A DNA stretch of 46,387 bases, from NCBI GenBank assembly GCA_949290865.1, contig CASETM010000033.1:1-46387 (forward strand), written 5' to 3'. The notes beneath the pieces were generated by a model, which ran no database searches, was not told where the DNA came from, and saw only the letters and a program-made list of their open reading frames with translations. Both the position numbers and the translations under genes were made by a program. The stretch is from an uncultured Bacillota bacterium (GTDB taxonomy: Bacteria > Bacillota_I > Bacilli_A > Erysipelotrichales > Coprobacillaceae). Of the stretch, positions 8,192 to 10,665 are shown piece after piece (positions within the stretch are counted from its first letter, which is position 1; every line of letters begins with the position of its first letter).

Positions 8192-9169
8192 ATGTGTACA
8201 GCTATTACTTATCAGACAAAAGATCGTTATTTTGGGAGAAATCTTGATTTGGAATATTCATATCATGAAACGGTGACTATCACCCCACGCCATTATTGCC
8301 TGAATTTTAGAAACGGTCAGACTTTTGATGAACATCTGGCAATAATGGGGATGGCCTATGTTGTCAATGATTATCCTTTATATTACGATGCCATGAATGA
8401 AAAAGGGGTTGCGATGGCAGGATTGAACTTTCCTGGCAATGCCTGTTATCTCGAAGAAAATCAGCCAGGTGATAATATTGCACCTTTTGAACTGATTCCA
8501 TGGATACTGAGTCAATGTCAGAATATAACGGAAGTCAAAAAACTGTTAAAAACTATTCATATTGTCGATATCAGCTTTTCAGATCAGCTGCCTAATTCGC
8601 CGCTTCATTGGATCATCGCTGATAAAGAAAAAGCCATTACTGTAGAATGTGTTAAAGAGGGTCTAAAAATATATGATAATCCAGTAGGTGTCTTAACGAA
8701 TAATCCTGCATTTGATATACATATGTTTACTTTAAATCAGTATATGCATTTATCAGCTTCGCAGCCAGTAAATCATTTCTCTAAAACGGTTCCTTTTCAA
8801 TATTACTGTCAGGGCATGGGAGCCATCGGTTTACCAGGTGATATGTCATCGCTTTCGCGTTTTGTCAGAGCAACTTTTACCAAACTGAATGCAATTTCAG
8901 CGGATGATGAAAATAGCAGTGTTCATCAGTTTTTTCATATTTTAAATAGTGTGGCTTTTACTAAAGGAACAGTCTGTATTAAAGATGATGTCTATGATAT
9001 GACAGTTTACAGTTCATGCTGCAATCTGGATAAAAAGATCTACTATTATACAACTTATGAAAACAGTCATATTGTAGGTGTTGACATGAATAATGAAGAT
9101 CTGGACAGGACATGTCTGAAATCTTATGATTTAATAAAAGAAGCTCTTTTTATTCAAAATAAAAACTAA
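8192..9169 (+). CDS. bsh: Bile salt hydrolase (choloylglycine hydrolase family)
   Basis: Ntn-hydrolase that splits glycine- or taurine-conjugated bile acids. The initiator Met is followed directly by the nucleophile Cys2 (MCTAIT). Arg16 and Asp19 in GRNLDLE, AGLNFPGNA near residue 79, LTNNPAFD near residue 170 and SLSRFVRA near residue 220 match the bile salt hydrolase active site, and favour this substrate over penicillin V. 325 residues is the family length. It has no signal peptide, so it is cytoplasmic. The gene is monocistronic and divergent from GH36; its stop lies inside a terminator stem. It points to a gut habitat. Confidence 0.9.
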   Translation: MCTAITYQTKDRYFGRNLDLEYSYHETVTITPRHYCLNFRNGQTFDEHLAIMGMAYVVNDYPLYYDAMNEKGVAMAGLNFPGNACYLEENQPGDNIAPFELIPWILSQCQNITEVKKLLKTIHIVDISFSDQLPNSPLHWIIADKEKAITVECVKEGLKIYDNPVGVLTNNPAFDIHMFTLNQYMHLSASQPVNHFSKTVPFQYYCQGMGAIGLPGDMSSLSRFVRATFTKLNAISADDENSSVHQFFHILNSVAFTKGTVCIKDDVYDMTVYSSCCNLDKKIYYYTTYENSHIVGVDMNNEDLDRTCLKSYDLIKEALFIQNKN

Positions 9170-9196
9170 CTGATAAATCAGTTAGTTATTTTTTTT
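9164..9196. terminator. Bidirectional terminator between bsh and tRNA-Thr
   Basis: 10-bp stem AACTAACTGA/TCAGTTAGTT with loop TAAA. T-runs follow on the plus strand (8 T) and, less perfectly, on the minus strand. It ends bsh and the convergent pyrBI-tRNA transcript. Confidence 0.8.
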
Positions 9197-9197
9197 A

Positions 9198-9273
9198 TGG
9201 TGCTGGAGGTCGGATTCGAACCGACAACCTACTGATTACGGGTCAGTTGCTCTACCATTGGAGCTACTCCAGC
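9198..9273 (-). tRNA. tRNA-Thr (anticodon CGT), with unusual C33 and C14
   Basis: A 76-base cloverleaf: acceptor GCTGGAG/CTCCAGC, D stem GCTC/GAGC, anticodon stem ACTGA/TCAGT with loop CCCGTAA, T arm GTCGG-TTCGAAT-CCGAC, discriminator A and encoded CCA. The anticodon CGT (9240-9238) reads ACG. Position 33 is C (base 9241) rather than the near-invariant U, and position 14 is C rather than A. All stems pair, so this is not simple decay. It starts 12 bases after the pyrI stop and appears to share the pyrBI transcript. Confidence 0.92.
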
Positions 9274-9285
9274 AGGGTAAAGGGC

Positions 9286-9711
9286 TTAGCCCTTATGTTC
9301 TACTTTTGTTTCGCAATATATACATCTGTAAATCCTTTTTTTCTCATTCGCCAGATAGAAAACATGATCCAGATCTGCTTCTACCGAGGTGATACAACGC
9401 GGATTTTTGCATTTTTCAATATTGACGATCTTTTTTGGCAGTTTTAATTTTTTCTTTTCAACAAGATCGCCATTTTTAATGATACATACCGTAATGTTGG
9501 GATCAAGATAGCCTAGTACTTCAAAATCAATAGTTAATTCGTTATCGATTTTAAGTATATCTTTTTTTCCCATTTTATTCGATTTGACATTTTTGATAAT
9601 GGCAACACTGCAGTCTAATTTATCTAAACCTAAAGCATCATAGACCTTCATTGCATTTCCGGCACTGATATGATCTAAGACGATACCGTTTTTAATACTA
9701 TCTATTTTCAT
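9286..9711 (-). CDS. pyrI: Aspartate carbamoyltransferase regulatory subunit
   Basis: Binds CTP/ATP and joins catalytic trimers of PyrB into the allosteric holoenzyme. 141 residues: N-terminal allosteric domain (about 1-95) starting [14 protein letters not shown], and C-terminal zinc domain with four cysteines in CKNPRC and YRCIYC. The start at 9711 overlaps the end of pyrB by 14 bases and has GAGGT in the pyrB coding sequence. A PyrI-containing enzyme suggests feedback control by nucleotides rather than transcription attenuation, as no PyrR-type leader is seen. Confidence 0.95.
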
Positions 9712-10639
9712 TTCTGTCTACCTCATTTTCTAATCCAAGCATTTTTAAAATCAATGCCATTCTAATATAACGGCCATTTTGGACCTGTTCAAAATATTTT
9801 GCCCGAGGATCATCATCGACTTCGGTCGCAATTTCGTTAACACGAGGTAAAGGATGCAGGATCGTAAGATCTAGTTTAGAATTCTTAAGTTTCTTGAGGT
9901 CAAGAATATAGGTATCTTTTAAACGGATATAATCCTGTTCATTAAAGAATCTTTCTTTTTGAACACGGGTCATATAAAGAATATCCAATTCTTCAATGAC
10001 TTCTTCGATGCTTCTGACTTCTTTATAATCAAGATTTTTTTCATCTAACAGATCGTTTTTCAGGTATTCGGGAATCTTTAATTCTTCAGGTGAAATAAAG
10101 ACGAAACGAATATTTTTATATCTTGACAGCGCTTTTGTCAGTGAATGAACAGTACGTCCAAATTTCAGATCACCACAAAAACCTATTGTCAGATCATGGA
10201 GTCTGCCTTTTTCTCGTGAGATTGTCAGCAGGTCTGTTAATGTCTGGGTAGGGTGATTATGTCCACCATCACCAGCATTGATCAATGGTACTTTGCTTCT
10301 TCTTGAGGCAACAAGAGGAGCACCTTCTTTCGGATGTCTCATAGCAATAATATCACTATAACATGAAACTGTCCAGATAGTATCGGTTACACTTTCACCT
10401 TTTGATGCAGAACTATTGTCTGCACTTGAAAATCCCAGTACACTTCCTCCTAATGATAACATAGCTGATTCAAAAGATAAACGGGTTCTTGTACTTGGTT
10501 CAAAGAAAAGTGTCGCTAATATTTTATGACGGCAAATATCCTGATATCTTGTTCTGTCTTTGATGATATCGTTGGCGATATCTATCAGTTCATCAATATC
10601 TTCAATACTTAAATCCATAGGATCGATTAAATACTTCAT
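9698..10639 (-). CDS. pyrB: Aspartate carbamoyltransferase catalytic subunit
   Basis: Condenses carbamoyl phosphate and aspartate, the second step of pyrimidine synthesis. The 313 residues carry the carbamoyl phosphate loop [39 protein letters not shown] and HPLPRVNEI. The start is the ATG at 10639 because AAAGGA sits 9 bases before it; an upstream in-frame ATG (10657) overlaps that ribosome site and would add six residues. The other pyr genes are not nearby. The transcript continues into pyrI and probably the tRNA. Confidence 0.96.
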
Positions 10640-10665
10640 CTTTCTGTTTCCTTTCATTTTTTCCT

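Follow-up and report, generated by a model that had tools for sequence, protein, structure and literature searches.

Can a bacterial elongator tRNA that lacks the uridine of the anticodon U-turn still serve in translation, or does such a gene mark the beginning of decay? The question is raised by a tRNA-Thr(CGU) gene with C33 in a stretch of 46,387 nucleotides from an uncultured Bacillota bacterium with a gut-type Bacilli genome, here called the window. To our knowledge, U33 has been treated as invariant in elongator tRNAs, with C33 read either as evidence of a pseudogene or as something peculiar to the initiators of eukaryotes.

The gene itself is complete. ARAGORN identifies a tRNA-Thr(cgt) of 76 nucleotides, CCA included, on the minus strand (9273-9198), the sole tRNA gene of the window. 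It scores 66.6 bits against Rfam RF00005 with the whole model covered (gathering score 29), and all six genomes of the genus carry an orthologue. Read directly, the RNA begins GCUGGAG UA GCUC CAAUGGUA GAGC A ACUGA CC CGU AA UCAGU and continues AGGUU GUCGG UUCGAAU CCGAC CUCCAGC A CCA. Thus, all four stems are fully paired and CCA is encoded. Of the features expected of a functional elongator, the molecule has the four paired arms, a 7-nt anticodon loop, G18G19 and the TTCRA motif (within UUCGAAU), with C33 at 9241 (G on the plus strand) in place of U33. The anticodon CGU (34-36; 9238-9240) is followed by A37 A38. Threonyl-tRNA synthetase of E. coli recognizes the identity elements G1-C72, C2-G71, G35 and U36, and each of these can be read from the window sequence. 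There is no stem break, low covariance score or truncation of the kind that marks pseudogenes. Nor is the gene missing or scrambled in near relatives, as it occupies the same locus in 6/6 genus genomes, although one copy (in G004) contains a mismatch. An earlier note on this DNA, which described a tRNA-Thr(CGU) with C33 and C14 but intact stems and CCA, was exact in its description, as confirmed by ARAGORN, Rfam and direct reading.

The same note counted C14 (position 9260) as an anomaly, a view that comparison within the family overturns. Of 28 family tRNA-Thr(CGU) genes, 19 have C at position 14, five have U and four have A, and the D-loop of a tRNA-Thr(GGU) of the genus (L021) is identical to that of the window tRNA. 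In the arrangement GCUC-C-AAYGGUA-GAGC, the base is C14, in place of the A14 that would pair with U8, if the loop is numbered with 8 nt; alternatively, a normal AAYGGUA loop of 7 nt is preceded by one additional C. As judged from these genes, C14 is a lineage trait of threonine tRNAs and not damage. We reject a second lesion at this position, given that C or U is the family norm (24/28).

What lies upstream of the gene is conserved within the genus. In 6/6 genomes it lies directly behind pyrB and pyrI, which encode the catalytic and regulatory chains of aspartate carbamoyltransferase. In the window, pyrB (9698-10657, minus strand; Pfam OTCace_N 4e-43, OTCace 5.1e-27) overlaps pyrI (9286-9711, minus strand; PyrI 4.4e-30, PyrI_C 1.8e-13), and 12 nt separate the pyrI stop codon from the tRNA. 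Folds of the junction sequences place a hairpin, AAGGGC-UAA-GCCCUU (9280-9294, minus strand), across the stop codon and 6 nt before the tRNA. A junction hairpin is found in 6/6 genus genomes (window, L010-L014); its stem sequence varies, and in the window the stop codon forms the loop. No promoter was seen between pyrI and the tRNA gene, and the sigma-70-like matches nearby are at chance level. A bidirectional intrinsic terminator (9164-9187, minus strand; 10 pairs, with a T-rich tail on both strands) ends both the pyrBI-tRNA unit and a converging gene. The latter (8192-9169) belongs to the choloylglycine hydrolase family (bile salt hydrolase-like, Pfam CBAH 3.4e-98) and shares the terminator. 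In G004, this gene is missing from the tRNA locus, and an alpha-galactosidase gene is found there instead. Because the tRNA lies 12 nt behind pyrI and has no evident promoter of its own, it is probably excised by RNase P from the pyrBI transcript. The junction hairpin would then be likely to protect the new end of the pyrBI mRNA after the RNase P cut. Family members outside this genus have the tRNA-Thr(CGU) gene apart from pyrI, often with a TATAAT-like box upstream.

Within the genus, C33 occurs in the window genome (G000) and in G004, an independent assembly of another species with an identical CCCGUAA loop; G001, G002, G003 and G005 have T33. The tRNA-Thr(CGU) of G029, from a different genus of the family, also has C33, with a promoter-like TATAAT upstream. 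An error of sequencing or assembly might be suspected, given that the source assembly is fragmented (107 contigs), but we consider this extremely improbable. G004, assembled independently, and a genome of another genus have the base as well, and it recurs in complete isolate genomes; we therefore reject sequencing error.

Because a tree of pyrBI DNA unites the window genome with G005, a T33 genome, at full support and leaves G004 outside, C33 may have arisen twice within the genus, or once with reversion in G005. Alternatively, the tRNA segment may have been exchanged, because the two C33 genomes also share C66, where the remaining genus genomes have T66. A single gain in the common ancestor of G000 and G004 conflicts with the tree unless G005 reverted or the segment was exchanged. 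A double gain or a reversion would fit near-neutrality of the base, and would also fit decay in progress. The G004 copy (L011 1501-1576) has further changes (U14, C20 and a U6-U67 mismatch), possibly indicating ongoing decay or fast evolution.

Within the family, the appearance of C33 departs far from chance and is biased by isoacceptor. Among family tRNAs that share one D-arm/T-arm pattern, 395 have T33 and three have C33, and all three of these are tRNA-Thr(CGU). C33 is thus found in 3/38 family tRNA-Thr(CGU) genes versus none of ~360 other comparable tRNAs (Fisher p = 0.0008, or 0.008 with G000 and G004 counted once; both values are rough, as relatedness is ignored and kindred genomes are not independent). 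Looking across 84,980 species, each represented by one genome, we identified 54 contig stretches (~51 genomes) with a C33 tRNA-Thr(CGU), isolates included, and ARAGORN calls each of them tRNA-Thr(cgt). This count is a lower bound, as the scan pattern requires GGTAGAGC as well as A37A38; some of the carriers are MAG contigs, for which binning may be wrong. The carriers include Bacilli and Acholeplasmatales, Clostridia, Fusibacter, Caldisericota (including Cryosericum), Sulfurospirillum (two complete genomes), Hippea, Tolumonas, Acidobacteria, Rickettsiales, Bacteroidales, Patescibacteria and several archaea. In Sulfurospirillum, 9/10 genomes in which tRNA-Thr(CGU) was found have C33, and 14/24 genomes gave no match to this tRNA; in Caldisericota, C33 occurs in 13 genomes of a clade and T33 in 24. 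This distribution indicates that C33 in a redundant tRNA-Thr(CGU) has arisen many times in bacteria and archaea and persists in some lineages; in other words, it is rare but tolerated. The literature searched contained no report of C33 in a bacterial tRNA-Thr(CGU).

The earlier note had suggested that the window gene may be drifting, and had held that sharing of C33 by related strains, with normal expression and charging, would speak against decay. C33 is shared by G004 and by other lineages, and it occurs with intact arms in many species; in the window gene, the stems, G18G19, TTCGA and CCA are all intact. The window copy may be decaying, but nothing else in the molecule points to this.

A related suggestion, that constraint is relaxed since the UGU tRNA covers ACG codons, is in line with what we find. 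tRNA-Thr(CGU) was not found by our patterns in 5/43 family genomes (complete or near-complete; one in a single contig), and because of these five genomes we consider it dispensable in the family. A tRNA-Thr(UGU) with U33 is present in 7/7 C33 genomes examined, which belong to Sulfurospirillum, Tolumonas, Fusibacter and Cryosericum. The G000 assembly yielded no tRNA-Thr(UGU), and we therefore infer UGU cover in the window genome from its relatives. Two contigs of G000 stop within ~20 nt of tRNA-Val, where relatives have tRNA-Thr(UGU) adjoining, so that the lack is presumably an assembly gap due to collapsed tRNA/rRNA clusters. ACG accounts for 14-19% of threonine codons in the window genome, 16% in the T33 sister and 5% in G042, a genome without tRNA-Thr(CGU). 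Loss of ACG codons from the C33 species is not seen (14-19% versus 16% in the T33 sister). The species thus does need to read ACG, and it shows no sign of giving the codon up.

These observations bear on whether the gene is an early pseudogene, already impaired by C33 and destined to be lost as in relatives. We regard this as unlikely. Arguing for it, the gene is absent from the five family genomes just mentioned, most tRNA-Thr(CGU) copies found in Sulfurospirillum carry C33 while more than half of the genomes there gave no match, the G004 copy has accumulated extra changes including its U6-U67 mismatch, and the tRNA lies under the pyrBI operon in the window genus but not in other genera. Counter to this, the window copy is otherwise undamaged, and at G7-C66 it pairs more strongly than G005 does at G7-U66. 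Intact C33 copies in nine Sulfurospirillum and 13 Caldisericota genomes would not be expected of a dying gene, and ACG usage is undiminished.

How C33 might alter the molecule can be predicted from what is established for the anticodon loop. Unprotonated C33 has no N3-H donor. The N3-H hydrogen bond of U33 makes the anticodon U-turn (PMC8080527), and the change to C would remove this imino contact, with a probable cost in decoding efficiency. U36A37A38 is the universal determinant of t6A37, and in bacteria C33 acts as an anti-determinant for the t6A enzymes TsaBDE (both stated in a review, PMC9654439). The window tRNA combines U36 A37 A38 with C33 and should therefore be a poor t6A substrate. 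C33 is expected to block or weaken modification of A37, and t6A37 is probably absent from this tRNA.

C33 also occurs in other tRNAs. Three genomes of the order have tRNA-Ile(GAU) with C33 (loop UCGAUAA; L135, L136 and L139, ~1484-1559 in each), and these genes lie in large phage-like arrays of divergent tRNAs, where C33 could affect t6A or recognition by anticodon nucleases. In G225 (L138 1486-1561, 2124-2199), C33 is found in tRNA-Thr(UGU), and the tRNA-Thr(CGU) of the same array has T33.

Alternatively, C33 may have been selected, giving a threonine tRNA that is free of t6A37 or slow on ACG, for regulation or escape from anticodon nucleases. The repeated, isoacceptor-biased origin and long persistence of C33 are consistent with this, as is its action as an anti-determinant for bacterial t6A enzymes (PMC9654439), and nuclease escape would make sense for the several other C33 tRNAs of the order that lie in phage-like arrays. 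However, neutrality agrees with the homoplasy within the genus, where the closest species has T33, and with how often the isoacceptor is lost. Neither a partner gene nor a regulatory site was found, and the C33 initiator tRNA of metazoans works, so that function need not change. We consider selection improbable for the window gene. A t6A-free tRNA may be the most concrete form of the special decoding or regulatory role that the earlier note had raised. In its broadest form, which we put forward as a long shot, the idea is that C33 has evolved again and again under selection, as a switch by which the tRNA-Thr(CGU) of bacteria and archaea leaves the t6A pathway. If true, lineages as far apart as Bacilli, Sulfurospirillum, Caldisericota, Patescibacteria and archaea would have a threonine isoacceptor that does without t6A and decodes at a speed of its own or resists nucleases.

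The explanation that we favor, and consider reasonably probable on the sequence evidence, is that the tRNA-Thr(CGU) of the window is a real and probably active elongator of second rank, which reads ACG, tolerates C33 under cover of the UGU isoacceptor and is co-transcribed with pyrBI. Tolerance could have two sources. C34-G3 and G35-C2 would give two strong pairs with the ACG codon, and a tRNA-Thr(UGU) with U33 should also be able to read it. Because of these two G-C pairs and this backup, tRNA-Thr(CGU) should be the isoacceptor that suffers least from C33, in keeping with the observed bias. As C33 recurs naturally in tRNA-Thr(CGU), and some of the carriers are cultured isolates whose genomes are complete, two questions can be tested in living cells: how far decoding relies on the base of the U-turn, and whether C33 truly abolishes t6A.

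It is instructive to compare the window tRNA with known systems. With the thrW-type tRNA-Thr(CGU) of E. coli it shares the anticodon CGU, A37 A38, G1-C72, C2-G71, an encoded CCA and canonical arms; it differs in having C33 rather than U33 and the D-loop CAAUGGUA, which is normal in the family, rather than AGUUGGUA. The metazoan initiator tRNA-Met is likewise a natural, functional tRNA with C33 (PMC8080527, PMC9023262), the base being normal there (PMC9023262). This contrasts in role, as the former is a eukaryotic P-site initiator and the window tRNA a bacterial elongator. The yeast SUP70 tRNA-Gln(CUG) U33C mutant has the same substitution in a C34 isoacceptor and is viable with a phenotype, which its authors attribute to poor decoding or charging (PMC3664417). 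However, this is a laboratory mutant, whereas C33 in the window is natural. Further parallels are in Sulfurospirillum and Caldisericota, for which no published study of the C33 tRNA-Thr(CGU) was found in the literature searched. In the genomes checked, these lineages have the same U33C change in tRNA-Thr(CGU), with intact arms and a single copy beside a U33 tRNA-Thr(UGU), but with a separate origin, other stem sequences and a different D-loop.
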